22,661 nt of DNA from a virus. This document shows, in pieces, positions 2,169 to 22,661 of the stretch. Each line of letters begins with the position of its first letter. Position 1 is the stretch's first letter. Below the pieces are notes generated by a model, which saw only the letters and a program-made list of their open reading frames with translations, had not been told where the DNA came from and did no database searches. Both the position numbers and the translations under genes were made by a program. The stretch spans positions 1 through 22,661 of the IMG/VR virus record IMGVR_UViG_3300049431_000009. One strand, 5' to 3'.

Positions 2169-3827
2169 TCAAAATCGGCTCCATCCAGTGTCAACTACTT
2201 CCCACAGGTCACCATCATATCGTTCAAATTTTGAGCTATTATTGACATGTGTTCCATCATTGACGATGAAGCCAATACTCTTTTTCATCTCGTCAATCGA
2301 ACCAGTTGAAACATCTTTCATGGAAGCCATGACATCTAGGTCTACAAGCGCCTTGAAGCTCCGTGTCTGCGTCATCCAAGCAAACAGTACCAACCCCATT
2401 ACCATGTCGTCTGTACATCCTTGCTCAGCCTCGTAGGAGTTACCAGACTTAGAGAATGTGTTCAGTTCGGTGATGGTATCCTTGCATGAAAGCTGTAGAT
2501 GCCTTTGCTCAAGCAGCAGCTTCAGAGATGAGCATCCAAGCTTCTTGACAGTCGTTGAAGTCTTGATACCTCGCTCCGTCTGCTTGCCACCACCAAAAGT
2601 AATTTGTTTTCCATGTGCACCGCGATTTTCAGTCTTGACGAGGTTGTCGTACTCGAAGTCATGGTGTAGGATGTGGCATACCTAACCACCCATGTTATTG
2701 TTTTCTACCAGCACGAAAGCTTTGTTGTAGGCATTGCCAACGGTGTTGATGATCACCGCATAGTCAGATGGTGTCATCTGGTTGTTGCGGAAAGATCCAA
2801 CTTGCCGGTATGGTAGTTCTGTGATATCGATCACATGGAATGCCTGATAGTCGAGTCCCTTACCTTCTGACACATCGCATATCATCGCATACTGGTGATT
2901 GCGCTCTGGTCGTTCGAACTGCTTGAATCCCTCGTTCGAGGAGAACATCGGATTCTGGATTGCCGATGCCAGTGCCTTCAGCGTGCTACCGCTAATGAGC
3001 GTCCCTGAAGAACCAAGGAACTCTACGGAGTATTCGACTGCGAACCTCTGTTCATCGAAGTTCATTTCGGCAAGAGTTTTTTGTTTCCACACTTCGTCGC
3101 GACCCGGAACTTTCCACCAAGGTGCTTCGATGAGCTTCCAGCCGTTGATGTTTTTCTTGGCACCATCGACATAGTTGTAGAAGTGATTCATGCCGTTTGG
3201 TGTTGACATGAAAACGATGATAGAGTCTTGACCAGAAGACACGACAGGCAGGGTACCAGCAGCGAAGTCATCCCAGTTTTTGATAAACGCAGCTTCGTCA
3301 ACACAAAGTAGGTTGATAGACTTACCACGCATCGCAGAACCAGTAGATGCACCGGAAATCACCATGCACTCATTGTCGAGCGAAAAACTTCTCTTGTTCC
3401 AGACCTTGACACCGGGCTTTAGGAAGTCAGGGAGTGACTGGAACATGTCTTGGATACGGCGAACGATTTCCTGTGCTTGGTCGGCCTGCTGTGCTACGAT
3501 GCCGACATTCTTGGCCTCGTTGAAGCAGATGTAATGCAGGATCATACCGGCAGCTGATTGTGTTTTACCGCACTGACGGGCGGCAGCAAAAAGAATTCTT
3601 CTTTCCCCACCGGAGATCGCGTTAGCAATTTCCTCTTGGTATGGGTACATTTCGAATGGCACGATACCACGGTCAAGGTGGATAACCTTCACATAAGTTT
3701 TCAGGAAGTAGATCGGATCATTCGCGCATCTATTCCACTCGTCAATCAACGCCTATGGATAATTTCTTTTAGATCCAGCTTTAGGAAGGTTGATATTACC
3801 ATTGTAATATTTTTCAGATTTCTTCAT
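2169..3827 (-). CDS. terL: Large terminase subunit (gp17-like), two in-frame TAGs
   Basis: 552 residues reading through TAG at 3753-3755 (codon 25) and 2682-2684. It is the motor that pumps and cuts DNA during head filling. The N-terminal ATPase shows Walker A AARQCGKT, Walker B LLCVDEAAFI and coupling motif MSTPNG. The C-terminal RNase-H-like nuclease has acidic clusters CDVSEG, VENNNMGG and TDDMVMGLVLFAW. The ATG at 3827 is preceded by GGTGG and gives MKKSEKYYNGNINLPKAG, the usual start of T4-type terminases. Without readthrough the gene would have to begin at a TTG and lose its nuclease domain. The second TAG falls in NNMGG-TAG-VCHILHHDFEYDNL, where remembered relatives carry Gln. Stop TGA at 2169. 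It is preceded by a terminator, so it probably has its own promoter. Confidence 0.93.
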
Positions 3828-3896: not shown

Positions 3897-4682
3897 TTAG
3901 CTCCAGATAGCGCGAACCCAAGCACCGCATAGTCCTGAACGAACAACATCATCGATACCGAACTCGACAGTGCCTGTTCTGGATGACAACTCTTTGTGCT
4001 TCAATGTCATCTATAGCGCCCATTTCAGGCCATTTTCTTGTTTAAGGTCGGTTTGGCGAACATCCCCATCGAGCACGAGTTTCGAGTTCTCACCGATTCT
4101 CGTCACGATTGATGTCATTTCATCGACTGTCGTGTTCTGTGCCTCTGTGACCAAGATGAAAGCGTTCGAGAAGCTACGACCACGGATGTGCTCAAGAGCT
4201 ACCATTTCAATGTCGCCACGCTTCAGTGCAATCTCGTACACCGATTCGCCAAGTCTCTCTTTCAAGATGTGAATAGTCTCGGCAAGCCAGACTTCCATTT
4301 TCTCTTCGAGGTTGCCCGGAAGAAGACCGATGGTACGACCGCATCCAACATTGGGACGGGTGATGACAATCTTTTTGATCTGGCCGCGATTGAACATGTC
4401 AGCTGCATGCGATACGGTCAAAAATGTTTTACCGACACCGGCAGGGCCAAAGATCATGATCTGTTCACACTTTTGATCCTGAAGGATCTGCATCAACTTG
4501 CGCTGATTATCGTTTTTCGGGAGGATTACTTTTGGCTCCGGTCTATCATGGATATGATGGATGTTGTCAGGGATAGAAGTGTTTTTCTTTTGCTGCTTCT
4601 CGGAACGGACAATCTTCCGATCTAAACGCTTCTGCTGGGCTGGAGTCAGTGCTGCTGCTAGGTAAGAGGTATGACGAGACAT
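3897..4682 (-). CDS. phoH: PhoH-like P-loop ATPase, one in-frame TAG
   Basis: 261 residues reading through TAG at 4011-4013. PhoH proteins are P-loop NTPases related to the helicase core and common in phages; their role is uncertain (RNA metabolism or phosphate response has been proposed). The sequence shows Walker A GPAGVGKT, the family motif ITRPNV with GLLPG, a Walker-B-like ILVTEAQN, and LDGDVRQTD. After the TAG it continues as MTLKHKELSS then IDDVVRSGLCGAWVRA, which I recognise as the normal C-terminus of the phage family, so the TAG is sense. Stop is TAA. Start ATG at 4682 has a strong AGAAGGA site. Odd: the Walker B has Thr where family members usually have Asp (VDEAQN). Confidence 0.9.
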
Positions 4683-5083: not shown

Positions 5084-6538
5084 ATGTCAAGAATTCAGTG
5101 GGTCAATGCCAGTTTCTGCAAGCTTGTAGCAGACCCAAGCATCATCATGGAATAGCACGAAAAGTTTTCCTTCTAGCCAGCAGGGTGGCGATTCATGAAG
5201 GCATACAAGTCTGGCCGCTGGGATGGTTGGATTAGACTTGTACACCGCAACGGAACTTTCCCGACTGGCATCGTTCCACTGGTGATGAAAAGCCTTATGA
5301 ATTCTGGCGAGCAAGTATCCCTGAGTTCTGAATTTTCTGCCTTCAAAGAAACACTCCCATTTGTCGAAGATGATCTCGATCTCCCATTTGCACTGTGGCC
5401 TCACCAGATTGACGCAATCAGCATTGCACTCACGAAGAAGCGCCGAACGATCTTGTCGCCGACCTCATCTGGCAAGAGCCTGATCATCTACTGTATCGCA
5501 AGAACGATGATCGATGCCGGGCTGAAAATACTTGTCGTCGTACCTTCTGTCATGCTTGTCCAGCAGATGTCGTCTGACTTCGCCGACTACTCAGTAAAAA
5601 ATAACTGGGATGTTGAAGGCAATGTGCACTCCATCACCGCTGGCGAAAACAAAAATACAAGGAAGCCGATCACCGTATCGACATGGCAGTCTCTTCAGAA
5701 CATCAAAGACCCAGCATACTTTGAACAGTTTGATGCAGTTTTTGGTGACGAGGCTCACGGTGCCAAGGCGACTGAGCTTTCATCTATCATGGAACAGTGT
5801 GTCAATGCTTTCTACCGCATCGGCTTGACTGGTACGCTTGATGGTGATAAGGCCAACGAACTCACCGTACAAGGCCACTTTGGACCTACTACGCGAGTTG
5901 CAGAGACGAAAGAACTGCAAGATCTAGGGCAGGTTTCGAATGTCAAGATCCATACACATATCCTGAAATACACAGATCCACAGTTCCTCAAGGCTGTCAA
6001 GGGATTGCCTTACAAGGACGAGATTCAGGTCATCGTCAACAAGAAGTCGCGTAACAACTACATCCAGAAGGTCGTAGGCGAACTCGAAGGTAACACGCTT
6101 ATCCTTTGCATGCTGGTAGAGACTCATGTCAAGCCACTGGCCGAACAGCTTCAACTGGCATTCCCAGAAAAGCAGGTATACATACTATCAGCAAAGACGA
6201 AAAAGGAAGAGCGCGAACGACTCAGGAAGTTGGCAGAGTTAGAAAGTAATTTGATTTTCATTTCTACCTATGCACTCTTCTCGACAGGTGTTAGTATCAA
6301 GAATCTGCACAACTGTGTCTTCGCACACCCGTTGAAAGGCTGTATCAAAATTTTACAAAGTATCGGGCGTGTGCTCCGTTTACATGCCTCTAAAGAGTTT
6401 GCGAATGTCATTGACATAGCTGACGACTTCAGAGGTACCAGCAAAAAAGAAAATTATGCTCTGAGTCACTTCATCATAAGAGCAAATCTGTACCGGCAAG
6501 AAAAATTCCCAATCAACATAGTAGAGGCTCAAATCTGA
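5084..6538 (+). CDS. uvsW: UvsW-like recombination helicase, two in-frame TAGs near the start
   Basis: 484 residues reading through TAG at 5153-5155 (codon 24) and 5174-5176 (codon 31). T4 UvsW is a superfamily 2 helicase that unwinds R-loops and branched DNA and switches off origin replication. The N-terminal DNA-binding part aligns from memory: FSF-TAG-PAGWRF....GRWDGWIRL against T4 FSFEADGYRF....GNWDGRIRL, so the second TAG sits where T4 has Glu. Helicase motifs: LWPHQIDAI (Q-like), I SPTSSGKS, II GDEAHGA (DEAH), III GLTGTL, V STGVSIKN and VI QSIGRVLR. An ATG at 5195 would delete the conserved beginning of this domain. Stop TGA overlaps the next start (TGATG). Confidence 0.93.
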
Positions 6539-8380: not shown

Positions 8381-8408
8381 TTGACTCTGTTGAAAAAGTA
8401 GGTATAAT
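8381..8408 (+). promoter_or_regulatory. Sigma70-type promoter for the tRNA array
   Basis: TTGACT (8381-8386), a 16-base spacer and TATAAT (8403-8408), ending 29 bases before the first tRNA. Near-consensus, so host polymerase could transcribe the array from early infection. Confidence 0.8.
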
Positions 8409-8437: not shown

Positions 8438-8522
8438 GGGTGTGTAGGAAAATTGGTAACCCCAGCGCGCTGTAAACGCGCCGCCACAAGCTCTGTTGGT
8501 TCAAGTCCAACCGCGCCCACCA
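8438..8522 (+). tRNA. tRNA-Tyr (GTA)
   Basis: Acceptor GGGTGTG/CGCGCCC with A73 and encoded CCA. Anticodon loop CTGTAAA on a perfect GCGCG/CGCGC stem. Long variable arm typical of tRNA-Tyr; T arm GTTGG/CCAAC with loop TTCAAGT. Confidence 0.92.
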
Positions 8523-8527
8523 GATTT

Positions 8528-8605
8528 GGGACATTGAAGGGAATTGGTATACCTTTCATCCTTAGAAGTTGAAGTTTCTCGGTTCGAGTCCGAGGTGTCC
8601 CACCA
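8528..8605 (+). tRNA. Atypical tRNA, anticodon TAG (nominal Leu, identity uncertain)
   Basis: Acceptor GGGACAT/GTGTCCC, A73, CCA and a perfect T arm (CTCGG-TTCGAGT-CCGAG). Anticodon loop CTTAGAA sits on TCATC/GTTGA with a U-U mismatch at the 30-40 pair, and there is no free base 26. TAG would read CUA/CUG (leucine), but the variable loop is only about 5 bases whereas bacterial tRNA-Leu is class II. The charged amino acid is therefore unclear. It does not pair with UAG codons. Confidence 0.65.
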
Positions 8606-8611
8606 AATAGC

Positions 8612-8685
8612 GGGATCGAAGCATTAAAGTGATGCAGTAGGCTTTTAACCTACTGAAGAAGGAGCGTTACCTTCCGATCCCACCA
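8612..8685 (+). tRNA. Atypical tRNA-Lys (TTT) without consensus D and T loops
   Basis: All stems are perfect: acceptor GGGATCG/CGATCCC, D stem GCAT/ATGC, anticodon stem GTAGG/CCTAC, T stem GAAGG/CCTTC; A73 and CCA present. Anticodon loop CTTTTAA gives TTT. But the D loop (TAAAGTG) lacks GG and the T loop (AGCGTTA) lacks TTC, so the usual elbow contacts cannot form. Confidence 0.65.
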
Positions 8686-8690
8686 GACAT

Positions 8691-8777
8691 GCGCTATGTT
8701 CCTGACATCGGTCTTCTAAACCGATTCCATGAGAGTTAGGTGGTAGGCGAGAGGTTCAATTCCTCCATAGCGCACCA
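8691..8777 (+). tRNA. Atypical tRNA, probably Arg (TCT), D-arm missing
   Basis: Acceptor GCGCTAT/ATAGCGC (7 of 7), A73, CCA and a T loop TTCAATT. The only good anticodon arm is TCGGT-CTTCTAA-ACCGA (8708-8724). Only 10 bases separate it from the acceptor, too few for a D arm, while 26 bases lie between it and the T arm. Could be a D-armless tRNA, a rearranged tRNA or a decaying gene. Confidence 0.5.
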
Positions 8778-8784
8778 AAGTTGT

Positions 8785-8860
8785 TGGGAAATAGTGTAGT
8801 AGGTTTGCACACGCTCCTTTGAAGTGCGTAGGTTGGGTTCAAATCCCGATTTCCCTGCCA
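8785..8860 (+). tRNA. tRNA-Gln (TTG)
   Basis: Begins with U1 and has discriminator G73 (GCCA), both glutamine features. The 1-72 pair is U-U, a weak end pair of the kind GlnRS favours. Anticodon loop CTTTGAA on CGCTC/GTGCG with a U-U mismatch at 30-40. T arm TTGGG/CCCGA, loop TTCAAAT. Confidence 0.85.
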
Positions 8861-8876
8861 GAATGAAATTGTTCTA

Positions 8877-8932
8877 GCAAGCCTTACTGTCGTGAGACGA
8901 GGAAGGAAGAATCGGTGCTCGATGTAGCTTGC
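8877..8932 (+). ncRNA. Candidate small structured RNA between tRNAs
   Basis: GCAAGC (8877-8882) pairs with GCTTGC (8927-8932) around two small hairpins, one near GTCGTGAGAC and one ATCG-GTGCT-CGAT (8912-8924). No T-loop motif and no CCA, so not a normal tRNA. The rest of 8861-9016 shows no gene. Confidence 0.25.
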
Positions 8933-9016
8933 ATTAAGAGTACCGCCGAAACCGTACAGGTTAGAGTGGACAGTGTGGACTGTTCAAGCAACGGTAAATA
9001 AATCCACAAGTATTAC

Positions 9017-9109
9017 GGCGAGTTGGTAGAGTCCGGCTTATTACTTCAGTCTTGAAAACTGACGGGTGTTAATAGCGCCCCGTGGGTTCGAATCCCACAC
9101 TCGCCTCCA
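9017..9109 (+). tRNA. tRNA-Ser (TGA)
   Basis: Class II tRNA: acceptor GGCGAGT/ACTCGCC, anticodon stem TCAGT/ACTGA with loop CTTGAAA, long variable arm CGGG...CCCG, T arm GTGGG/CCCAC with TTCGAAT, encoded CCA (discriminator T). Confidence 0.92.
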
Positions 9110-9117
9110 AGTTAAGA

Positions 9118-9216
9118 CTGCATGACGATGCAGTAAAGTGATCGATCAGCCAGAGGCGTACTTCTGGCAGATGGTACAAACAGATCACGCAGGCAGGGAA
9201 ATTTGGCCTCGCCCTG
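9118..9216 (+). ncRNA. Candidate structured RNA segment between tRNAs
   Basis: A run of clean stems: CTGCAT-GACG-ATGCAG (9118-9133), an outer GTGATC/GATCAC helix (9138-9143 with 9183-9188) enclosing GCCAGA/TCTGGC (9149-9154 with 9163-9168), then CAGGG/CCCTG (9194-9216). No coding frame. Confidence 0.3.
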
Positions 9217-9228
9217 TCCAGAATTGTG

Positions 9229-9301
9229 GTGGAGATAGTGTATCGGTTAGCACGCGTGTCTGTGAAACACTCAGGTAGGGTTCGATTCCCGTCTCCACAC
9301 C
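9229..9301 (+). tRNA. tRNA-His (GTG)
   Basis: Starts GTGGAGATAG, preceded by a G that can be the G-1 typical of tRNA-His. Anticodon loop CTGTGAA on GTGT/ACAC plus one mismatch. T loop TTCGATT; the T stem looks one pair short. The 3' end reads ACCT, so the final A of CCA must be added by the host enzyme. Confidence 0.85.
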
Positions 9302-9309
9302 TTTATTGC

Positions 9310-9384
9310 GCCGCTGTAGCTCAGAGGCAGAGCAGTCGCCTTGTAAGCGACAGGCCGAGATTTCGAAATTCTCCGGCGGCACCA
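9310..9384 (+). tRNA. tRNA-Thr (TGT)
   Basis: Acceptor GCCGCTG/CGGCGGC, A73, CCA. D stem GCTC/GAGC. Anticodon loop CTTGTAA on a perfect GTCGC/GCGAC stem. T loop TTCGAAA with one mismatch in the T stem. Confidence 0.92.
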
Positions 9385-9402
9385 AATAGTTGAAAATAGT
9401 TG

Positions 9403-9431
9403 TTGACAGATGCAAAGAGATCGATTATACT
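9403..9431 (+). promoter_or_regulatory. Internal sigma70 promoter within the tRNA array
   Basis: TTGACA (9403-9408), a 17-base spacer and TATACT (9426-9431): almost perfect consensus. It lies 33 bases before tRNA-Asn and would restart transcription for the second half of the array, including the suppressor tRNA. Confidence 0.82.
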
Positions 9432-9464
9432 CCTTGCATAAATTGATGACTAGATAAAGAATAT

Positions 9465-9539
9465 TCACAAGTAGCTCAGCGGTAGAGCCGACGACTGTTA
9501 ATCGTCTGGTCGGTGGTTCGATCCCACCCTTGTGAGCCA
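9465..9539 (+). tRNA. tRNA-Asn (GTT)
   Basis: Acceptor TCACAAG/CTTGTGA with G73 and CCA, as in bacterial tRNA-Asn. D stem GCTC/GAGC. Anticodon loop CTGTTAA on GACGA/TCGTC. T loop TTCGATC. Confidence 0.93.
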
Positions 9540-9545
9540 TACAAC

Positions 9546-9620
9546 CTGTTCGTAGCTCAGTTTGGTCAGAGTGCTCCATTTGGAATGGAGAAGTCGGAGG
9601 TTCAAATCCTCCCGGACAGA
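9546..9620 (+). tRNA. tRNA-Pro (TGG)
   Basis: Acceptor CTGTTCG/CGGACAG, A73, no encoded CCA (CAT follows). Anticodon loop TTTGGAA on CTCCA/TGGAG. T loop TTCAAAT. Confidence 0.9.
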
Positions 9621-9687
9621 CATTTAGATACTCCATATCGAGTATCGAACCTTAAATACATTAAGGACAACAGCTGGAAGGCACTGA

Positions 9688-10350
9688 ATGTATTTTCTGA
9701 TATACAAGATTACCAACTTGATAAATGGTAAGATCTACATCGGTGCTCATAAGACCGATGACATCAATGATGGGTACATGGGATCTGGTCTTCTCATTAA
9801 GAGGTCGATTGAAAAGTATGGGATTGAAAATTTCAAGAAAGAAATTCTATCGCATCACGATTCTGAAGAACAGATGTACCTCACTGAGAGTCTTATTGTC
9901 GATGATGAATTTCTGAAAAGAGATGATGTCTATAATTTGAAACTTGGTGGTGATGGTGGCTGGGATTACTTAAATGATGGCGAAGGCTTGTATAATAGAT
10001 TAAGTTCTAAAAATTTTTAGAACTGGTGGGTAGCCGGAAATAAAGCTAGTGTGGCTAGGTGGTTAAACCACGAAAAAGTTGCAGATTTGAAATATCACAT
10101 GTCTAAAATTTCACATGATGGTACATAGGCATTAAAAGAAAAGTACAAAGATGAAAATTGGACATTTTCAGGCAAATTTCATTCAGATGAATCCAAGATG
10201 AAAATTGGCCTTGCAAATTCGAAAAATCAAAAAGGTACTGGTAATTCGAATTATGGAAACATGTGGATAACTAACGGTAAGTTGTCCAAGCTTATACCTA
10301 AAAATTCTGTCATAGATGAAGGTTGGTATAAAGGTAGAAAATGTAAATGA
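9688..10350 (+). CDS. GIY-YIG homing endonuclease with two in-frame TAGs
   Basis: 220 residues reading through TAG at 10018-10020 (codon 111) and 10126-10128 (codon 147). The N-terminus carries the GIY-YIG nuclease core: MYFLIYKITNLINGKIYIGAHKT with the two signature strands, then YGIENFKKEIL and a conserved Glu in LTESLIVDD. The C-terminal part after the stops (WWVAGNKASVARW, then FSGKFHSDESKMKIGLANSK, then NMWITNGKLSKLI) resembles the DNA-binding repeats of phage homing enzymes. Such enzymes cut an allele lacking the gene and promote its spread. It sits between tRNA-Pro and tRNA-Glu. Stop TGA lies 4 bases before tRNA-Glu. Transfer signs: placement inside an RNA array and an AT-richer 3' half. 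Confidence 0.87.
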
Positions 10351-10354
10351 TTTT

Positions 10355-10429
10355 GGCCGCGTCGTCTAGAGGTTCGGACAACTGGTTTTCAACCAGCAGA
10401 TCAGGGTTCAAGTCCCTGCGTGGCTACCA
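10355..10429 (+). tRNA. tRNA-Glu (TTC)
   Basis: Begins GGCCGCG-TCGTCTAGAGG, like bacterial tRNA-Glu. Anticodon loop TTTTCAA on CTGG/CCAG. T arm AGGG/CCCT with loop TTCAAGT. A73, CCA encoded. Acceptor ends in a G-U pair. Confidence 0.9.
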
Positions 10430-10431
10430 CT

Positions 10432-10537
10432 TTATGCGTTTGAGTCAGTAACCGAGACTTCTCATTCATGGTGATGTAAGATGGCGGCAGAGCCGTTAAA
10501 AGTCTTTCTCAGGACTAGCCATCACACCAGCGCATAA
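10432..10537 (+). ncRNA. Candidate structured RNA closed by a 7-bp helix
   Basis: TTATGCG (10432-10438) pairs with CGCATAA (10531-10537). Inside, GTGATG (10471-10476) pairs with CATCAC (10520-10525) around CGGC-AGA-GCCG (10485-10495) and AGTC/GACT (10501-10516). A nested multibranch fold of about 106 bases with no tRNA T loop or coding frame. Confidence 0.4.
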
Positions 10538-10544
10538 TTAAATT

Positions 10545-10635
10545 TGTCGATGTGGATTGAAACTTGGTCGGTAGCCGTTAGGTAGATCAGGGACTAAATC
10601 ATATAGGTAATACGGTTCGAGTCCGTCTTCGGCAA
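10545..10635 (+). tRNA. tRNA-like relic, identity undetermined
   Basis: A T arm (ACGG-TTCGAGT-CCGT) and weak acceptor TGTCGAT/TTCGGCA are visible over about 91 bases, a class II length, and a GGTCGGTAG D-loop-like part is present. I find no acceptable 5-bp anticodon stem with a 7-base loop and no CCA. It could be a degraded class II tRNA. Confidence 0.3.
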
Positions 10636-10643
10636 ATGTTTTC

Positions 10644-10719
10644 GGGGGATTAGCTCAGTTGGTAGAGCAGGTGCTTTGCAAGCATCAGGTCGTCGGTTCG
10701 ATTCCGACATCCTCCACCA
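10644..10719 (+). tRNA. tRNA-Ala (TGC)
   Basis: Acceptor GGGGGAT/ATCCTCC, A73, CCA; D arm GCTCAGTTGGTAGAGC; anticodon loop TTTGCAA on GGTGC/GCATC; T arm GTCGG/CCGAC with TTCGATT. Fully canonical. Confidence 0.95.
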
Positions 10720-10722
10720 GAT

Positions 10723-10792
10723 ATGCAGAATAATGCTTCGAAAGGGGTTAGCGGTGATGCATTGCCATAGAGCTGTACACCGTCATCTGCAT
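10723..10792 (+). ncRNA. Candidate structured RNA closed by a 7-bp helix
   Basis: ATGCAGA (10723-10729) pairs with TCTGCAT (10786-10792), enclosing CGGTG/CACCG (10752-10756 with 10778-10782). It fills the gap between tRNA-Ala and tRNA-Ile and has no tRNA arms. Confidence 0.35.
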
Positions 10793-10798
10793 TGTTTT

Positions 10799-10874
10799 CG
10801 AGGGTTAGCTCAGTTGGTAGAGCAACGGACCGATAATCCGTAGGTCGCTGGTTCGAATCCAGCACCCTCGACCA
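10799..10874 (+). tRNA. tRNA-Ile (GAT) with C33
   Basis: Acceptor CGAGGGT/ACCCTCG, A73, CCA; canonical D arm; T arm GCTGG/CCAGC. Anticodon loop is CCGATAA on ACGGA/TCCGT. Position 33 is C instead of the near-invariant U. Confidence 0.9.
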
Positions 10875-10878
10875 GTTA

Positions 10879-10968
10879 GGAAGCGTGGCAGAGTGGCCGA
10901 TTGCAGGTCTTTGCTAAAGATCCGACCCTTAACCGGGTCCGTAGGTTCGAATCCTACCGCTTCCGCCA
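10879..10968 (+). tRNA. tRNA-Ser (GCT)
   Basis: Class II: acceptor GGAAGCG/CGCTTCC, G73, CCA. Anticodon loop TTGCTAA on GGTCT/AGATC. Variable arm ACCC/GGGT. T arm GTAGG/CCTAC with TTCGAAT. Confidence 0.94.
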
Positions 10969-10972
10969 GTTT

Positions 10973-11049
10973 GGCTATGTAGCTTAGAGGCTTAAAGCAT
11001 CCGCCTGTCTAGCGGAATATCGCGGGTTCAAATCCCGCCATAGTCGCCA
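10973..11049 (+). tRNA. tRNA-Asp (GTC)
   Basis: Acceptor GGCTATG/CATAGTC, G73, CCA, as in bacterial tRNA-Asp. Anticodon loop CTGTCTA on TCCGC/GCGGA. T arm GCGGG/CCCGC with TTCAAAT. Confidence 0.93.
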
Positions 11050-11050
11050 A

Positions 11051-11144
11051 ATTACAGAGAAAAGCGAATGGGCATTCGCAGAAGAAAGTTGTGCGGTACT
11101 ACAAGAACCCTCAAGTCAGGATGATAGCCCTCTGACCTTGTAAT
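11051..11144 (+). ncRNA. Candidate structured RNA closed by a 7-bp helix
   Basis: ATTACAG (11051-11057) pairs with TTGTAAT (11138-11144). Inside are GCGAAT-GGGC-ATTCGC (11064-11079) and GTCAG/CTGAC (11115-11119 with 11132-11136). It exactly fills the space between tRNA-Asp and tRNA-Met. Confidence 0.38.
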
Positions 11145-11150
11145 GTTTGT

Positions 11151-11226
11151 TGCGCTGTAGGGAAGTTGGCATCCCGCTTGGCTCATAACCAAGAGATCGT
11201 CGGTTCGAGTCCGACCGGCGCTACCA
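11151..11226 (+). tRNA. tRNA-Met (CAT)
   Basis: Anticodon loop CTCATAA on a perfect CTTGG/CCAAG stem; D stem GGGA/TCCC; T arm GTCGG/CCGAC with TTCGAGT; A73, CCA. The 1-72 pair is U-U, an initiator-like unpaired end, but the anticodon stem lacks the three G-C pairs of initiators. Initiator, elongator or Ile2 (lysidine) type is undecided. Confidence 0.9.
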
Positions 11227-11425
11227 GATCCCTGTCTCGGCTGGTTAATCCGAGTGACTTGCAGGTGGTAGATGTAACCTGATAAGATTGACCTCGCTGA
11301 AAAAGACGGTCATGGGGCTGATAATCCCGAAACTGTAAGTTAGCTAATATGCAAATGCCTGTGGATGGGTGGTCTTCCATGTTGTTGAGGCGCGGTAAAA
11401 ATCCGAAGGACTGCCACGAATTTGT
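11227..11425 (+). other. 200-base spacer with hairpins, one mimicking half of tRNA-Ile
   Basis: Stems: CTCGG/CCGAG (11236-11254) and CAGGT/ACCTG (11262-11281). Then comes a D-arm-like GACC/GGTC (11290-11311), one base, and an anticodon-arm-like TGGGG-CTGATAA-TCCCG (11313-11329) with GAT in the right place. No acceptor or T arm follows, so this is not a complete tRNA. No coding frame. Confidence 0.35.
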
Positions 11426-11501
11426 TGAGGGATAGCATAGCGGCTAATGCAGGTGGCTCTAACCCACCCTTACCTCGGTTCGAGTCCGAGTCCCTCCACC
11501 A
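11426..11501 (+). tRNA. Amber suppressor tRNA (CTA), reads UAG
   Basis: Fully canonical class I cloverleaf. Acceptor TGAGGGA/TCCCTCC with a U1-C72 mismatch, U8-A9, D stem GCAT/ATGC with GG in the loop, anticodon stem GGTGG/CCACC with loop CTCTAAC (anticodon CTA at 11459-11461), 5-base variable loop, T arm CTCGG-TTCGAGT-CCGAG, A73, CCA. It is the tRNA needed to decode the 15 in-frame TAGs. For charging, U1 with a weak 1-72 pair, G2-C71, G10 and U35 suit glutaminyl-tRNA synthetase; A73 instead of G73 and C38 do not. The short variable loop argues against Ser, Leu and Tyr. Confidence 0.95.
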
Positions 11502-11707
11502 AAATTCATAGTGCCATTCCCTGAAGGTAAGCCTGACACTATGAGTAGTCCGTAAAGACCCAAAACTACAAAATGAGCGCGATACGGCTATGTCCCTGTG
11601 ATTCTAGTAAGGGGTTATCCGCACCAGATCGAAAAATGACTTAGGTGAGTAAGCATGACGACACCTTTGCCGCCCTCTAGTTATGTCCTATGCCGTCAGG
11701 TTATGGC
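11502..11707 (+). other. Gene-free trailer of the tRNA array
   Basis: No gene seen. It contains hairpin CATAGTG/CACTATG (11507-11543) and AGGTG/CACCT near 11643-11666, continuing the pattern of structured spacers before the array terminator. Confidence 0.35.
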
Positions 11708-11746
11708 AATGCCCGGTTTCTTACTAGAAGATTCTGGGCATTTTTA
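11708..11746 (+). terminator. Rho-independent terminator of the tRNA array
   Basis: AATGCCC (11708-11714) pairs with GGGCATT (11736-11742), running into TTTTTATTT. It ends array transcription just before the peptidyl-tRNA hydrolase start. Confidence 0.8.
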
Positions 11747-11761
11747 TTTCAGGAGTATGAT

Positions 11762-12124
11762 ATGAATGTCAAGCAAGTAATCGTTGTCAGAAAAGATCTC
11801 AACATGCCAGCAGGAAAGCTTGCTGCACAGGTTGCGCACGCATCAGTTGGCGCATTCATCAAATCAGCCTCATACAGCACGAATGTTATCTCATTGTGGG
11901 AATCAGACGGGTGCACTAAGATCGTGCTGGAGATCGAAGATCTCGAAGCCCTATTGGCACTTGCGCACAAGGCAGACAACTTCCTTCACGAGTGCACTGA
12001 TCTCATCGTAGATGAAGGTCGTACTTGCTTTGATGGAGTTCATACGGTAACCTGTCTTGGAATCGGACCTTACTACTCCGATGACATCAATTTCCTTACA
12101 GGTCACTTGAAGACATATCGATGA
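11762..12124 (+). CDS. pth2: Peptidyl-tRNA hydrolase 2 (PTH2 family)
   Basis: 120 residues, the usual PTH2 length. The enzyme releases peptides from prematurely dropped peptidyl-tRNA and recycles the tRNA. The signature is at the N-terminus: KQVIVVRKDLNMPAGKLAAQVAHASVGA, followed by KIVLEIEDLEALLALAHKA and a C-terminal VTCLGIGPYYSDDINFLTGHLK. The start ATG at 11762 has a strong AGGAG site (the frame is open to 11690, but through the terminator hairpin). PTH2 is typical of archaea and eukaryotes and occurs in some large phages. No TAG codons. Its stop overlaps the next start (ATGA). Confidence 0.92.
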   Translation: MNVKQVIVVRKDLNMPAGKLAAQVAHASVGAFIKSASYSTNVISLWESDGCTKIVLEIEDLEALLALAHKADNFLHECTDLIVDEGRTCFDGVHTVTCLGIGPYYSDDINFLTGHLKTYR

Positions 12125-12363
12125 ACGAAGGATGGGTATTTCACTGGCATGCAAGAGCCGAGCTTTTTGCATTCTCGCAGGTAGGTACGCTTGTCATCAT
12201 GAATGACATGAAGAAAAATTTGACATACGAAGGTGAAATTGTTGACAAGCGCACTTGCAAGCTGACTGGCGAACCCTGTATACTCGTCAGATGGAGCTTT
12301 GGTCAAGTCGAAGCTATGTATGCTAATGACTTGCGAGTTCATGTTCACATTGAGGATTATTGA
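12121..12363 (+). CDS. Hypothetical 80-residue protein
   Basis: Overlaps the hydrolase stop by four bases (ATGA), so it is translationally coupled. I do not recognise it. It is short and beta-rich (YEGEIVDKRTCKLTGEPCILVRWSFGQVEAMYANDLRVHVHIEDY), which could form a small barrel of the SH3/Tudor kind seen in other coupled phage peptides. Stop TGA. The 3' end overlaps the end of the convergent HNH gene by 7 bases. Confidence 0.75.
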   Translation: MNEGWVFHWHARAELFAFSQVGTLVIMNDMKKNLTYEGEIVDKRTCKLTGEPCILVRWSFGQVEAMYANDLRVHVHIEDY

Positions 12364-12965
12364 GATTTAGAAATCCTTCCATAATTCCAACCACTTGGCA
12401 ATTCTTCACCTTGCATTACAAATGATGTTCTATGTCCGTCATTTATGATTTTTCTACCTTTTAACTTTTCGGATATTGATTTCTTCTTTTCTTCCGAACA
12501 TGCAATACCGGTCAGTTTATCGACTCTTTTCTGTATCGTAGAAGTGCTTTGTTTCTTTCCGAGTCTAGACTTTGACATCATTTCCTTTGAATCTTCTGTA
12601 TGTGATTTACCATACATTGGGTGAAGTTCGCCACTATTACTCTTTTGAAATTTCTCTCTGCTGCTTTGATACAATCTGGAATTTTGATACCTCTACTTGT
12701 ATTTGTCCATAGCACCCATTGTCCATAGTGCTTTGTACATCTTATATCTATCTCTTCCATCTGTCATTTTGGTTAGAAGATAATGGCATATGAAATGCTT
12801 TCTGGCAGATATTCTAACCAAATTGGTTTTACTATTTGACCCACCTAGGCTTTTAGGTATAATGTGATGCAGTTCGGTGTATCCAGATTCTTTATGATCT
12901 GGTATACTTATGATCTTGAAATATAGGCGTGTGTATTTGTTGTCTAGAAACGCGTAAATATCCAT
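12357..12965 (-). CDS. HNH homing endonuclease, one in-frame TAG
   Basis: 202 residues reading through TAG at 12693-12695. The N-terminal HNH core is GYTELHHIIPKSLGGSNSKTNLVRISARKHFICHYLL (H-H, N, H). After the TAG comes RYQNSRLYQSSREKF, then LHPMYGKSHTEDSKEMMSKSRLGKK and SEEKKKSISEKLKGRK, which are NUMOD3-like DNA-binding motifs. The C-terminal NDGHRTSFVMQGEELPSGWNYGR is typical of phage homing enzymes. The core and the DNA-binding part are useful only if joined through the TAG. It lies on the strand opposite to its neighbours, a sign of insertion as a selfish element. Stop TAA. Confidence 0.88.
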
Positions 12966-13713: not shown

Positions 13714-13950
13714 ATGCACAGCGTAGATGTGTTGTTTGGTCAGTACCGGAAGTCAAAGACAGGTGAACGGTTTGGACAGTGGTTCGTCAATCGTTATGTC
13801 AAAGACGAAGGTAATGATCCAGATCTGAAAACGCTTTTCTATGCTCCTTCTCATGAAGCATATGTCAGTCTCAGGCACTGGCTGACACGAAATGATTATG
13901 CTTGGACACTACCGACACCTTACCGAAACCTAGACACATTGGAGATATAG
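13714..13950 (+). CDS. Hypothetical 78-residue protein ending at TAG (or 102 residues by readthrough)
   Basis: I do not recognise this protein. It starts at ATG 13714 with an AGGAG site and encodes a mixed hydrophilic domain (VLFGQYRKSKTGERFGQWFVNRYVK, then YVSLRHWLTRNDYAW). The frame meets TAG at 13948-13950, one base before the kinase ATG (13952). In this genome TAG is normally sense; readthrough would add 24 residues plus the TAG residue and end at TGA 14029-14031 inside the kinase gene in another frame. The junction spacing looks like a true gene end, which makes this the only gene where TAG may act as a stop. Confidence 0.7.
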   Translation: MHSVDVLFGQYRKSKTGERFGQWFVNRYVKDEGNDPDLKTLFYAPSHEAYVSLRHWLTRNDYAWTLPTPYRNLDTLEI

Positions 13951-15730: not shown

Positions 15731-16687
15731 ATGGGAAGCGTACTACAGTCATAGCCATCGAGAAGTGGTGTAGATAGTAACGGCAATGCCTTTACAACCA
15801 CCAGTGAAATTCCAAGACCGACAACGACAGCTGCAAAAGCTGCGTTGCCACTTGCGACCTCTGTAAAAAATTCTGATCCAGATAGCCCATCGTCGGCTAT
15901 GAAGTCGATTTCTCCGCAACCAACTGTTCTTGACTATTCGAACTTTACCGATGTCGATCCGTACATCGAGATCGTCGGGTATCCGTATGAGCGGTTCATT
16001 CAGGATGGTAGCAACCTGCAAGCGCCAATCGTTCGCGTTCGTCTTCCATTGATTGGTCCGGTTCAGTCTGGTTACAGCATGAACTACACATCGTCTGATA
16101 TGTCATTTGCGTATGACGCTGCTGTCGAGCCTATCAAGAATTTGGCAAACATGGCAGGATTTGATTTCAAAGAAAGAAACAACACGGTTGACATGTTGGG
16201 CGGATCTGCACTGCAAACCGCTTTCAATGCTGCTTCGTTTGGTGGCGAGTTCAGAAACCAACTGGCTAACGAAACTGGTCTTGCTACCAATGGCAGACAG
16301 GAATCTTCTTTTGTCAGTATCGGCATGCGTGACCATTCATTCGATTGGATTCTGGTACCGAGAAACGCTGATGAGACTGCCGTCATCTTGCAAATCATCA
16401 AGTTGATGAAGCTAAACATGCACCCGACTGTTACCGGTATCGGTAATTCATTCCTGAAGTTCCCTACCGAGTTTACCATCGGCTTCTACTCAAGAAAGAA
16501 CAATGGCGAGCGCCTGAACATTCCTGTGATCCCAGATTGCTCGCTGGCATCTTTCAACATCACCTATAACCAGAACGGCGCTGCCAGATTCCATGATGAC
16601 AACACGGCACTGAGCTACAGGCTGTCCATGTCATTTGTCGAAGGCAACCAGCTTACACGCGAAGACATTGAGCGCGGAGACTACTAA
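15731..16687 (+). CDS. Baseplate tail-tube initiator/cap (gp54/gp48-like), TAG at codon 8
   Basis: 318 residues; T4 gp54 is 320. These proteins share the tail-tube fold and start tube polymerisation on the baseplate. TAG at 15752-15754 is codon 8 (MGSVLQS-TAG-PSRSG). Without readthrough only a TTG at 15845 would be available. The N-terminus is a Ser/Thr/Pro linker. The C-terminal tube-like domain shows DHSFDWILVPRNADETAVILQIIKLMKLNMHPTV and then FLKFPTEFTIGFYS, matching the F-F-W-L-P-N--EA--I--II---K--M-P and YPSEF pattern I remember for gp48/gp54. TAA overlaps the next ATG. Confidence 0.75.
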
Positions 16688-17202
16688 TGAAATACTTTCA
16701 AGAGCTTCCACTCGTAGATTATCCGCTACCGTCAGGCGAGCTGGTCAAGGCAACCGATCTCAATATCCGGTACACCTTCACAGACGATGTACTGTCACAG
16801 CCGTTTGCGTTCTACGAGTACCAATGGGGCGACTCGGATACTCCAGACAAGGTTGCCAAGATGTACTACGGTGACTATGACCTTGCATGGCTTGTCATGA
16901 TGTCTGGTCAGTTGTTCGACTGGATCGAAGACCTGCCGGTACCGCAGCGGTTCTTCCAGCCATACCTAGAAAAGAAGTACGGCGTTCCGCTCGAATATCT
17001 GTACACGCAGGTTCATCATTTTGAAGATGAGAACGGCTTTATCGTTGACGAGTTTTCCAATGGCAACCCAGTGTTCGTCTTCGACTATGAAGAAACTCAA
17101 AATGAAAGCAAGCGCGTTGTCAAGCTGATTTCCAAGAGATACCTGAAAGACATCAAGAAAGAATTCAGAGAGAAGTTGCTGGCTATCAGAGAGGTTAACT
17201 GA
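16687..17202 (+). CDS. Baseplate wedge protein, gp53-like
   Basis: 171 residues. T4 gp53 is a wedge subunit (196 residues) that clamps gp25 and gp6. Here the part around YYGDYDLAWLVMMSGQLFDWIEDLPVPQRFFQPYLEKKYG matches the gp53 core (IYGNPQLYWVLLMCND...). The C-terminus RYLKDIKKEFREKLLAI resembles the T4 end (INSFMNDLIRIME). Start and stop overlap both neighbours (TAATG and TGATG). No TAG codons. Confidence 0.75.
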   Translation: MKYFQELPLVDYPLPSGELVKATDLNIRYTFTDDVLSQPFAFYEYQWGDSDTPDKVAKMYYGDYDLAWLVMMSGQLFDWIEDLPVPQRFFQPYLEKKYGVPLEYLYTQVHHFEDENGFIVDEFSNGNPVFVFDYEETQNESKRVVKLISKRYLKDIKKEFREKLLAIREVN

Positions 17203-18443
17203 TGGCATATTACGAACCAAGTACCTGCATACTGGAAGAGCTTGTACTCATCAACTTCAAGGGTGAAGAGCTTGACATCATCCCTACATTCTCTTCTCTG
17301 GAATTGCAAGAAGATATTTTCATGTCTGCGATGGTCGGTGATGTCAGGCTTGTCGAGATGCACGACTTCCAGTAGAACTTTCCGATTGTAGGACAAGAGA
17401 AGTTAAGGATTTCATACAAGACAGTTGAAGATTTTGATCTCATCACTCTCACATTCTCCGTCTACGGGATGTCTGACAAACTCGAAGTCGGTAACGGTAT
17501 GTTTGGGTATACTCTGAACTTTGCTTCCGTCGAGTTCGTTAACAATATTGCAACAAAAACAACGATCTCGATCAATAGACAAGATCCAGTAGGTGTGGTA
17601 AAGCGTGTCTTGAAGGATACACTGGGATCTCGTAAAAAGTTGATAGCTGATGATGTTGGCAATGGGATTGACTTCATTGCACCTAGAATTTCTGGGTTCG
17701 AGTTGATCAACTCGCTTGCTGCTAGGTCATCTGGAAAAGCCGATGGATCATTCGGGTTTCTATTCTTCGAGACTCCGGCAGGGTTCAACTATCGCAACCT
17801 GAACATGCTCAAGCAGCAGAAGCCACAAGAGTACAAGTTCTCTCGTACCGTCAGCGTGAACCCAGATGTTGACCGGATGAGAGTAGTCCAGAACATTCAG
17901 CTTGAGGATGCTGCTAACATCCTTGATCGTATTGACAAGTCTGCGTTCGGCGCGAATATCACCATATTCGATCCACTGAAGCGGGTCGCGTACAGGAAGA
18001 AGATCTCGTACTTTGACCAGCGCGTACAGGACAAGCTTGACAAGATTGAAGGTGATTCTGCAAAGCATTCACTACAGACAAAAGAATTTTCATACACCAA
18101 TCCGTCCAGTGAAATGCTGTTGCCGCTTTCTGATCGATCAATCGGCAAGGTTCAGCGGATGATGCTGATCAACACGCTGGAGTATGGCATCCGGTACAAT
18201 GTCGATATTCCCGGTAATTCAACATTGCATGCAGGTCAGATGATCGACTTGCAGCTGCCTTCTTCTACTGGTGAGGACATCATCAACAACGAAGAAGACC
18301 GCTTCATGACAGGCAACTATCTCGTGACATGCGTGAGGCATAAATTCACAAAGAACAATCATGTCATGTCACTGCAAATCGTCAAGGACAGTTTCAAGAA
18401 TGACCATGACCAATTACAAGCAACATTGAAGAAGCGCATCTAA
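17202..18443 (+). CDS. Baseplate hub protein, gp27-like, one in-frame TAG
   Basis: 413 residues (T4 gp27 is 391) reading through TAG at 17373-17375 (codon 58, DFQ-TAG-NFPIVGQEKLRISYKT). Gp27 trimers form the hub that carries the spike and joins the tail tube. The order of elements fits: a beta-barrel with NFPIVGQEKLRISYKT, FSVYGMSDKL, a middle FLFFETPAGFNYRNLNML, and a C-terminal barrel RYNVDIPGNSTLHAGQMIDLQLPSSTGE followed by FMTGNYLVTCVRHKF. The following gene encodes the spike, as in T4. TAA overlaps the spike ATG. Confidence 0.78.
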
Positions 18444-19234
18444 TGAAACAAGATTTCGGCCAGAACCACTACACCTTCTTCGGTGAGTGTGAATCCAGAA
18501 ATGATCCACTAGAAGCTGGTCGTATTCAGGTCAGGATCTTTGGTCACCACACGCGTGATAGATCAGTTCTTCCAACTGAGATGCTCCCTTGGTGCCAATG
18601 CCTGCTGCCTGTCACTTCTACTGACACGACCATGAGCAATATTCAGATCGGTACCGTAGTCTATGGGTTCTTTCTGGACGGAGAAGACAAGCAGATTCCG
18701 ATGATCACTCATGTGATCGGTGGCCTAGTAGCAGATGGGGTTGCTCACTACTTAGGATATATTGATAAGACGCTCTCAGGCTTCGCTGACGGGCGTTTTA
18801 GGTCAAAGCCTACTCAGGTATTGCCTTTGGAGAAAAACGATCCATACGCGGCTGTGTACCCGTTCAATCACGCGTCTGAGTCTGAGTCTGGTCATGTATT
18901 CGAGGTCGATGACACACCGGGTGCCGAAAGAATCCATGTACTGCACCGGGCTGGTAGCTTTATCGAGATCCACCCAGATGGAAGCATCGTAAAGAGATCA
19001 GCTGCTGATACCTGTGATGTCTCTGTCGGTGACCATGCCACATCTTGCCAGCAAATGCGTGTCGAAGTCGGCGCTGACTATAGCATCAAGGTATCAGGCA
19101 ATGCGGTAATCAATGTCACAGGGAACTCGCAGGAAAAGGTTGGCGGTTCCAAGACCATAGAGGTCGGCGGTGATTTTGTGATCAATGCAGGCGGCTAGAT
19201 TGTCGCCAACGGAAGCCAGATTCATCTGAATTAA
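18443..19234 (+). CDS. Tail spike, gp5/VgrG-like without lysozyme domain, one in-frame TAG
   Basis: 263 residues reading through TAG at 19196-19198. The N-terminal OB fold is clear (CESRNDPLEAGRIQVRIFGHH, then LPWCQCLLPVTS and IGTVVYGFFLDGEDKQIPMITHVIGG). The middle carries the gp5C/VgrG motif EVDDTPGAERIHVLHRAGSFIEIHPDGSIVKRSA, and then come beta-helix repeats of about 8 residues (DYSIKVSGNAVINVTGNSQEKVGG...). The TAG falls inside the last repeats (INAGG-TAG-IVANGSQIHLN), with TAA following. T4 gp5 has a lysozyme domain between these parts; it is absent here. It pierces the host envelope. Confidence 0.85.
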
Positions 19235-19645: not shown

Positions 19646-21430
19646 ATGCCGACGAATACTGATAGACTGCCTCTGGCTTCTGGTGACTTTAACGACAACC
19701 GGGAAAAGATTAAAGAGTTCCTGAAATCTCAGCCGGAACTTTCCGACTACGATTTCGATGGTAGTGCCATTTCCGTGCTGCTTGATGTGCTTGCATATGA
19801 CAACTACCAGAAAGCATTTTACCTTAACCAGATCGGTAATGAGAGTTTTCTCTCGTCTGCCATCAAGCGCAACTCGATTGTATCGCGAGCCAAGGATCTA
19901 GGGTATTCACCAAGGTCAAAGCGTGCATCTTCTTTCAAATTTGATCTGGTACTCACGGCTCCTAGCCTTACAGCGTCTGCATTTCTCGTCTAGGACAATA
20001 TCAAGTTCAACTCGGACTCATACGCATTTGTTACCAATGACTCTTACCAAGCAGTGCGCCAAGTTGATGGTACCTACCTTGTCAGCAATGTAATTGCATA
20101 TGAGGGCAATCGGCTTTCATACAAGCAGGTTATCTCAGAAACGAATAGAAAGCGCATTAGCATCCCAAACCCAAATGTCGATACCTCTTTGATAAAGGTA
20201 AGCGTAGCATCGGTTGCGAGTCCTACCGAGTTCCTTGAATTCCAAGTAGTTGACAATGTGCTTGATGCCGACTCTGCGACTCGTGGATTCTTCATCGAAG
20301 AGGTTGATAACGGCCTGTATGATATCGTTTTTGGTGACGGTGTATTGCTACAGTCACTTGAAATTGGTGATATTGTTAATGTCTCTTATTTCGTCACGAA
20401 TGCTGAACTTGCTAACAGCCTTTCAGTCCTAAGTCTTGAGACATCGATTGACGGTATAACCTCAGCTGGGTTCGTTTATGATGGAAAGTCTTCAGGTGGT
20501 GCACCGGAAGAAAGCATCGAGTCAGTCAGGGTAAATGCGCCTCTTTTCAGAGAGACATACCAGCGTGCCGTGACTCCTCCAGACTACGAAGTGCTCATCA
20601 AAAAGCTATTCCCGATTGCAGGCGATGTCAAGGCAGTTGGCGGTGAAAAGGTATTGCCGCCTAAGTTTGGCACTGTCGTAATTTTCGTAAAACCGCTATC
20701 TGCCAATTTCTTGACATCACGCGAGAAGGGAGATCTGATTGCTTTCTTGGAAAAGTACAAGACAGTGCTTTCGAAAGTCGAAATCGCCGATCCTGAGTAC
20801 ACCTATGTCATCCCACAGGTTAATATCGAAGCTGACACTAAAAAGACAAGTCAGTCGGCTGGTGAAATCGAGGATGCAATCGAAGCGGGTATTATACAAT
20901 ACAGCAATGACCGTTTTGAAAAGTTCAATGCGGTGTTCAGGCAGTCTAACTTCATCTCGTATGTCGATAAACTGTTCCCATATATCATTTCATCCGCAAC
21001 TAGGTTCTCGATTGAAAAGCGGATCTTCGCCACGCTCAAAAAGAATGTGGCCTACGAGTTTTCCTTTGCAGCTGAAGTAGACGAGTGTACGCTTATCAGC
21101 ACTGAGTTTTCTTACAATGGCATCGACAAGTGCTTCTTCAATGAAGAGCTTGGTATACTGAAGATCATGACGCTTGACACTGATGGCGTGGCTCGTGTCG
21201 TAAATTCAAATGCCGGTACACTTGATCTTTCGACTGGAAAGATGAAGATTTTATCTATTGCGATTGACTCCATTCCAGAAGATGATCGCCTGTATGATGA
21301 GTCATATCAGGACTACTACATCCGCTTCCAAGTGAGTAGCCGCGCAGACTATGTTGGGAAGAATGAGTACAGCATTGTGAAAATTGAATCGCCTGTCGTT
21401 ACAGTGACCAAGACTAGCGGAGTTCTCTAA
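19646..21430 (+). CDS. Baseplate wedge protein, gp6-like, one in-frame TAG
   Basis: 594 residues reading through TAG at 19991-19993 (codon 116). Gp6 (T4: 660 residues) dimerises to form the inner ring of the baseplate. The N-terminal DFDGSAISVLLDVLAYDNYQKAFYLNQIGNESFLSSAIKRNSIVSRAKDLGYSPRS is the hallmark of the gp6/gpJ family. Later come FGDGVLLQSLEIGDIVNVSY, then NAPLFRETYQRAVTPPDYEVLIKKLFP and a C-terminal ring domain with QSNFISYVDKLFP. The interrupted place is SASAFLV-TAG-DNIKFNSDS. TAA overlaps the next ATG. Confidence 0.9.
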
Positions 21431-22661
21431 TGACTAGCACAAGAAGTCTTTTTGCCAAAAGGGCAATCCCAAGTCACATCATTGACAGTCAATCGTCAAT
21501 CGTAGACTTCTTGGAAAAATATCTCATCTGGTCCGAAGAGACAGGGAACGCTACTGCTGACATTTACGATCTACTGAAAAACCGGGACTCTGCTAGTGCG
21601 GAGTCCGAGTACATGGAGTTTTTCAGAAAGGAATTTTTGCCTTCTATCCCAGATGATGCCAAGGCTGACAAGTCTCTTTTGGTTAGGCACATTCTTGACT
21701 TGTACAAGACTCGTGGTACCGAGAGATCTTACAAGTTCTTGTTCAGTATCTTATTCAACGAATCCGTCAAACTGACTTATCCGCGTGATAGCATTTTCAT
21801 GCCTTCTGCTGCCAAGTGGGTCATTGAACGGAGTGTGTTTGTCAAGTCTGCTACCAGCTTGGTAGGGTTTGCGTTCGAGCGTACTTTCCTTGTCACTGGG
21901 AAGCGTAAGATAGAAGTTGAAGTAAACTATGCGGTAAAGGCAGGTGAAAATCTTTACGAAATTTTCTTCAGATCGAGAAGAGAGCTTCCAGCTGCACTTG
22001 ACTCTGTTGAAATTAACGGACTGACATATAAAGTTTCATACACTGTTGGCATTTCAAAGATAGTCCGTAGAGGGTAGGGATTTACCGAAGGTCAATTGTT
22101 CACTATCCAGCGTGGTAATGGATCTCCGATAACACTGAGAGTTTCTTCAGTTTATGCCGATGGTGGTATAAAGACTATTACCGTCGTCAGATTTGGTGCC
22201 AATTTTCAAGTTGATAGCATCAATGCTGTAATTTCACCTGTTGAAATCGACAACACTGAGTACCTTAACACAATCGGTACTAACAGCTATTCTACTGCAA
22301 GTAAAGTGCCAGAGATTTCAGAGTTTGGCTTGGTTGTCAAAAACAACTGGATCTCGGCTGGGTACTTTTATGACGATACCTATGCAGGTGACATTGTAGC
22401 ATACTTTGAAGAGTCTACCCAGTAGGAAGCTGTAGGATCGGCTCTGATCAGATTCACGGCTCAGCCATTTACCGATTACATTGGATACCATGCAGATATC
22501 AAGGGATTTCCCTCTGATCAGTCAAAGCTCCTTGACTCGGACATCATTCAAGAATTCTCGTACATTGTGGAAAGTTCGGTAGAATTTGAACTTTACAGAG
22601 GTATCGTTGATCGGCTATTGAACCCAGCTGGTGTAAAATTTGCGTCTGAAAGATCATTCAC
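21430..22661 (+). CDS. Large baseplate wedge protein, gp7-like N-terminal part, two TAGs, runs off window
   Basis: At least 410 residues, open to the end of the window, reading through TAG at 22075-22077 (codon 216) and 22423-22425 (codon 332). The N-terminal FLEKYLIWSEETGNATADIYDLLKNRD, then EYMEFFRKEFLPSIPDDAKADKSLLVRHILDLYKTRGTERSYKFLFSILFNE is a block I recognise from gp6/gp7-neighbouring wedge proteins of T4-like and larger phages. The first TAG lies in RRG-TAG-GFTEGQLFTI, a place where Gln would fit the beta-turn pattern G-Q-G. Its place after gp6 agrees with the T4 gene order. The exact family is tentative. Confidence 0.7.

Follow-up and report, generated by a model that had tools for sequence, protein, structure and literature searches.

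A T4-like bacteriophage probably reads UAG as a sense codon through a CTA-anticodon tRNA of its own, with glutamine, attached by the GlnRS of the host, as the most likely residue. The DNA analysed, termed here the window, is an entire IMG/VR virus record of 22,661 bases. In the proposed mechanism, the phage would supply an amber-suppressor tRNA (positions 11426–11501), transcribed along with a tRNA array. This tRNA would pair with UAG via C34 U35 A36 and would out-compete the host release factor RF1, so that ribosomes could then pass the UAGs in phage genes, most likely with insertion of glutamine. UAA and UGA would stay stops.

Judged from its genes, the record is a fragment of a T4-like myovirus; it carries terminase, PhoH, UvsW, ThyX, a tRNA array, PTH2, an exonuclease and a baseplate cluster. 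The host is most likely Gram-negative. The closest terminases among phage records are those of Pseudoalteromonas phage XG4 (52%), Rhizobium phage RHph_I1_18 (47–49%) and Sinorhizobium phage phiM12 (48%). A close relative was not found among viral contigs, where the top terminase match reaches 55% over a short piece and about 50% at full length, very near records possibly being missing from the search; peptide searches of these contigs with gp6 and UvsW found no close relatives either.

Recoding in the genes surrounding the tRNA had been proposed in the initial annotation, and it is borne out by 15 accepted in-frame TAG codons in 11 genes:

2..739 (+), protein without assigned family, cut by the contig end; TAG 398–400
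2169..3827 (−), terminase large subunit (TerL); TAGs 3755–3753 and 2684–2682 (codons 25 and 382; 382 aligns with Gln)
3897..4682 (−), PhoH-like protein; TAG 4013–4011
5084..6538 (+), UvsW-like helicase; TAGs 5153–5155 and 5174–5176
9688..10350 (+), GIY-YIG (SegE-like) homing endonuclease, inside the tRNA array; TAGs 10018–10020 and 10126–10128
12357..12965 (−), HNH/NUMOD3 endonuclease; TAG 12695–12693
15731..16687 (+), baseplate tail-tube-cap-like protein; TAG 15752–15754, N-terminal, beyond the homologous part
17202..18443 (+), tail protein (phrog_350); TAG 17373–17375
18443..19234 (+), baseplate hub/gp5-like protein; TAG 19196–19198
19646..21430 (+), baseplate wedge gp6-like protein; TAG 19991–19993
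21430..22659 (+), baseplate wedge-like protein, cut by the contig end; TAGs 22075–22077 and 22423–22425

The same frames contain no internal TAA or TGA. PHROG profile matches span the TAGs in TerL, PhoH, UvsW, the tail protein and gp6, so that TAG occurs in frame within conserved genes, as in code 15, and for 13 of the 15 TAGs the homologue alignments cover the position. With TAG as a sense codon, none of the 25 complete frames stops at TAG; 16 stop at TGA and 9 at TAA. The accepted TAGs compare with 221 CAA/CAG codons; the count leaves out TAGs that precede the likely starts of UvsW, Pth2 and the AAA kinase. The two homing endonucleases hold three in-frame TAGs between them, and therefore depend on recoding as well.

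Coding density alone is too noisy at the GC content of the window (the gain is 0.19 with TGA as sense and 0.23 with TAG as sense), and for this reason internal-stop counts and homologue alignments were used. Counting stops that split two open stretches of at least 80 codons each gives 7 TAG, 1 TGA and 1 TAA in the window, two of the seven TAGs being antisense to genes. The first 50 kb of phAss-1, a positive control, give 14 TAG, 1 TGA and 4 TAA, and none of eleven T4-like relatives shows an excess of TAG over both other stops. In-frame TAG is absent from the homologues, which cover 106 groups for the terminase and 90 for gp6, and thus recoding appears to be confined to this lineage, as far as it has been sampled. 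A CTA tRNA was not found in 160 loci of relatives, a weak result, since these hold five tRNAs in all.

That the TAGs are assembly errors, or mark decaying genes, might be suggested by the origin of the window as a single metagenomic contig that has no close relative for comparison. This reading is very improbable: internal stops of the accepted frames are TAG throughout and never TAA or TGA, the 11 genes are otherwise intact, and with equal odds for each stop codon a run of 15 TAGs out of 15 would be expected about once in 14 million.

The tRNA that would decode these codons is:

11426..11501 (+), amber-suppressor tRNA, anticodon CTA, with U1.C72, G2-C71, A73 and encoded CCA (ARAGORN, Rfam)

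The fully canonical cloverleaf and the CTA anticodon that the initial annotation had described were recovered by ARAGORN, one of the checks it had called for, with boundaries at exactly 11426–11501. The Rfam model RF00005 scores 51.9 bits (cut-off 29; E = 1e-8 for the window), and the match is therefore well beyond chance. In the ARAGORN cloverleaf, the acceptor has seven positions with U1.C72 unpaired. The D arm has a 4-bp stem that includes G10-C25 and the D-loop AGCGGCTA; the anticodon stem is 5 bp (GGTGG/CCACC), with the loop CTCTAAC providing U33, C34 U35 A36, A37 and C38. A variable loop of 5 nt, a 5-bp T stem with T loop TTCGAGT, and A73 followed by encoded CCA complete the molecule. 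The U1-C72 mismatch, G2-C71 and U35 to which attention had been drawn are all present, as are A73 and C38, the two residues noted as unlike those of a normal tRNA-Gln. Cloverleaf, invariant residues and CCA are those of a bacterial-type tRNA, and the CTA that follows U33 and precedes A37 is an amber-suppressor anticodon. The thermodynamic fold taken alone is weakly better than shuffles (z −1.7).

ARAGORN labels the gene tRNA-Pyl, a label that derives from the anticodon alone and was given to every CTA anticodon checked. In pyrrolysine tRNAs the anticodon stem characteristically has 6 bp and the variable loop 3 nt, and the D loop is reduced. The suppressor has a full-size D loop with GG, a 5-bp anticodon stem, a 5-nt variable loop and a standard T loop, and pylS is not seen within the window; tRNA-Pyl identity was discarded on structure, and its probability is negligible.

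The suppressor is the last tRNA of an array, and the elements of this region are:

8381..8408 (+), sigma-70-like promoter TTGACT-16-TATAAT before the array, by consensus match only (11/12)
8438..11501 (+), array of 16 tRNAs (ARAGORN), suppressor last
8785..8860 (+), ordinary tRNA-Gln(TTG), with U1.U72, G2-C71 and G73 (ARAGORN)
9403..9431 (+), second sigma-70-like promoter TTGACA-17-TATACT within the array, by consensus match only
11708..11749 (+), probable intrinsic terminator 3′ of the suppressor (fold z −4.8)
11762..12124 (+), PTH2-type peptidyl-tRNA hydrolase (PF01981, E 1e-32), first gene 3′ of the array
15200–15276, tRNA-Gly(TCC), apart from the array (ARAGORN)

The terminator has a 9-bp stem, AATGCCCGG/CTGGGCATT, and then a T-rich tail; its long loop let it escape the pattern scan. 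The promoter-like sites (the overall number of such matches is near the shuffled expectation) and the terminator hairpin make it plausible from the sequence that the array forms one transcription unit. A theta or HDV-like ribozyme after the suppressor was discarded, with neither a descriptor nor an Rfam match. No HDV-like motif has its cleavage site at the 3′ end of any array tRNA (start within 5 nt), as judged by a home-made descriptor that had no positive control and gave one chance-level match elsewhere.

Several other features of the array deserve mention. A tRNA-like RNA at 8690–8777, missed by ARAGORN, has a 9-bp acceptor and a 4-bp T stem (13 bp, as in tRNA-Sec), an extended anticodon arm and encoded CCA, and lacks a D arm. 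It scores 35.6 bits with the Rfam tRNA-Sec model, under the cut-off of 47, and its loop CTTCTAA is that of tRNA-Arg(UCU), a tRNA present in most T4-like relatives and absent from the array besides this candidate. A degenerate tRNA-like stretch at 10565–10640, with a good T arm and no proper acceptor or CCA, is probably a tRNA pseudogene. The tRNA-Leu(TAG) at 8528–8605 lacks the long variable arm typical of leucine tRNAs, and the tRNA-Met(CAT) at 11151–11226 has U1.U72 unpaired and lacks the GGG/CCC anticodon stem of an initiator. Long non-coding gaps separate the tRNAs (8861–9016, 9110–9227, 10430–10560, 10720–10798, 11050–11150, 11227–11425 and 11502–11690), several of them closed by a helix that begins right after the upstream CCA; they show no Rfam family and no shared repeats, and their folds are mostly mildly better than shuffles. 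Upstream of the array, some 500 bases (7870–8380) have no convincing gene and no Rfam match, and are possibly a structured RNA. Phage phiM12 has a relative of the PTH2-type hydrolase, and also a TTA-anticodon (ochre) tRNA (L078:10714–10789; ARAGORN).

The initial annotation held that the CTA tRNA explains the recoding. This stands in so far as the tRNA and the recoded genes occur together in the window, for which reason the suppressor is regarded as the natural decoder; it does not carry over to phages in general, as many with a CTA tRNA give no sign of recoding. Of about 100 viral loci that carry such a tRNA, most have no TAG excess, and in RHph_I1_18, which has one, TAG nonetheless ends three of 44 checked genes, including the tail tube gene. 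The inference of recoding thus rests on the genes and not on the tRNA alone.

In view of such phages, the CTA tRNA might be incidental, and UAG might be read by a second phage suppressor encoded elsewhere, by a host that suppresses or reassigns UAG, or in an RF1-poor host. The window is a 22.7-kb fragment, and RF1/RF2, GlnRS or a second suppressor may sit elsewhere in the phage. Against an incidental role, the tRNA is complete, its array has promoter- and terminator-like signals, and a CTA tRNA is the obvious decoder; in addition, its acceptor end is of a rare type, and a TAG-to-Gln code is not known to exist in bacteria. This alternative is improbable. The comparison of acceptor ends covered 104 CTA tRNAs, which comprise ARAGORN matches in viral contigs (found via a loop pattern), RHph_I1_18, two from phAss-1 and that of the window; the ends of a few without encoded CCA are possibly off by one. 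G1-C72 is found in 75 of the 104, and a weak or open 1-72 pair together with G2-C71 in five: the window tRNA, one phAss-1 suppressor, and those at loci L142, L181 and L183. The L142 tRNA has A1.A72, G2-C71 and G73, and its 135-kb contig (L142, L253–L259) has 16 TAG, 2 TGA and 7 TAA internal stops; this contig probably represents another phage with TAG recoding, and its CTA tRNA is of Gln type. L181 lies on a contig of 65% GC, where the internal-stop count says little. A tRNA with U1.C72 and G2.U71 (L123) is on a contig of which 60 kb were read, without an excess of TAG. The association of a weak 1-72 pair plus G2-C71 with recoding is suggestive rather than statistical, the cases being few.

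Phage code 15 with Sup-CTA is already well described, and the window probably adds a T4-like lineage to it. Forty-nine INPHARED genomes and 666 gut vOTUs use the code, 52% with Sup-CTA (PMC11210395), and proteomics has confirmed glutamine in crAss-like phages (PMC9523058). In jumbo phages, recoding reaches 6–9% in gut habitats and 0–0.65% elsewhere (PMC13037316). Like phAss-1 and other code-15 phages (PMC10607447; crAss-like, PMC9523058), the window has a CTA suppressor, a large tRNA array and TAGs in hallmark genes, and one CTA tRNA of phAss-1 shares U1.C72 and G2-C71 with the window suppressor. However, the three phAss-1 suppressors have G73 where the window has A73, and code-15 phages are mainly gut phages of other lineages, whereas the present one is T4-like, with no recoding among the relatives sampled. 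The suppressor tRNAs that are associated with theta ribozymes in gut phages (PMC10879173) likewise belong to recoded phages, but the window tRNA has no HDV-like motif and its CCA is encoded. The cultured, distant T4-like relative RHph_I1_18 also has a CTA-anticodon tRNA; this differs in having G-C at 1-72, is 58% identical to the window suppressor, and belongs to a phage in which TAG ends genes and no sign of recoding is seen. No report of TAG recoding in T4-like phages was found in the literature, of which coverage was incomplete.

As to the amino acid, 13 TAG columns were scored against homologue profiles, with 106 homologue groups for TerL and 90 for gp6, and every sense codon in these genes served for calibration. 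Control accuracy is 92% overall and 61–71% for Gln codons, and the TAG columns vary more than the average column. Raw summed scores are −0.6 for Glu, −2.5 for Gln, −2.6 for Thr and −2.6 for Ser, with Asn fifth. After calibration, Gln alone has a score that its true codons also reach (6% tail); the tails are 0.2% or less for Ser and Thr, and zero for all other non-Gln residues. Most of the weight comes from a single strong column, TerL 382, where Gln is the majority residue (weight 8 versus 1 for Glu). The calibrated test supports Gln without proving it, since TAGs at tolerant sites would favour residues with weakly conserved codons, Gln included. From these alignments the TAG residue is most likely glutamine, and Trp or Tyr is very unlikely.

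The tRNA itself points the same way. In Escherichia coli, an amber tRNA-Trp is charged with Gln, pairs 1-72 and 3-70 determine the glutamine identity of an amber tRNA-Ser, and amber tRNA-Asn mutants with a weakened 1-72 pair insert Gln (PMC9976931). Like the window tRNA, these suppressors have a CUA anticodon that includes U35, and those derived from tRNA-Asn and tRNA-Ser have an altered 1-72 pair as well; they are laboratory mutants in the cell, whereas the window tRNA is a natural one from a phage. The window suppressor has the features of a GlnRS substrate, namely a weak or open 1-72 pair, G2-C71, G10 and U35, but not the discriminator G73. U1.C72, G2-C71, G10 and U35 make amber suppressors GlnRS substrates, and host GlnRS therefore most likely charges this one. 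A73 in place of G73 counts mildly against glutamine. Derivatives of supF with A73 are reportedly charged with Gln, so A73 weakens Gln charging but leaves it possible; because of A73, the suppressor is classed as a likely GlnRS substrate and not as a tRNA-Gln. C38 is unusual (five of 104 CTA tRNAs). It should be pointed out that U.U at 1-72 occurs in the tRNA-Gln and the tRNA-Met of the array, and hence a mismatch there is not unique to a glutamine tRNA.

It is rather unlikely that the suppressor decodes UAG with another amino acid or a mixture, the candidates being Glu (by a non-discriminating GluRS, without amidation), Thr, Ser and Lys. A73 and C38 are a poor fit to a textbook tRNA-Gln, Glu is slightly ahead of Gln in the raw column scores, and few TAG columns favour Gln. 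These points are set against the scores of the non-Gln residues, which fall far under those of their own codons, the predominance of Gln at TerL 382, and acceptor features that match those of glutamine-inserting suppressors.

The suppressor had been regarded as no simple mutant of the neighbouring tRNA-Gln at 8785–8860, and its sequence agrees: identity is 54–66%, depending on gap penalties, and the tRNA-Ala and tRNA-Met of the array are at least as similar to it. The further claim of a separate origin holds to the extent that no source tRNA was found, and nothing beyond that is supported. In bacterial genomes, neither the exact 28-nt 3′ end of the suppressor nor a tRNA-Ala pattern aimed at the host had a match. 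Its exact anticodon-plus-T-arm pattern gave zero matches in viral contigs, and blastn against phages gave weak matches only (E 0.2 or worse). The T arm is identical to that of the tRNA-Leu(TAG) at 8528–8605.

One small gene appears to use TAG as a stop:

13714..13950 (+), small gene apparently ending at TAG 13948–13950, 1 base before the ATG of the next gene

It has a good ribosome-binding site, and a homologue search for it found none. Read-through would lengthen the product by 25 residues, the first of them at the TAG and the other 24 overlapping the next gene in a different frame. Either the stop is vestigial and the added tail is tolerated, or UAG still partly terminates. Among genes of structural or late type, 7 of 11 contain TAG, compared with 1 of 12 among the others (Fisher P 0.009). 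This bias is taken as a hint only, because P becomes 0.08 after correction for gene length and the gene classes were assigned by the analyst. A late-expression pattern of recoding has been reported in crAss-like phages (PMC9523058). Tentatively, UAG might be only partly reassigned, being read as Gln late in infection, after build-up of the suppressor, and still as stop in early genes, although this is doubtful.

The finding places stop-codon recoding in the T4-like superfamily, and offers a candidate recent, low-density case for the study of how recoding begins. A CTA tRNA in a phage is by itself poor evidence of recoding; a weak 1-72 pair with G2-C71 may mark the suppressors that accompany it, and this rule is testable. 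It is conceivable that the PTH2-type hydrolase adjoining the suppressor array clears peptidyl-tRNA during recoding. If partial reassignment proved true, it would represent a timing device that a T4-like phage acquired recently and independently, whereas such devices have been proposed for other groups.
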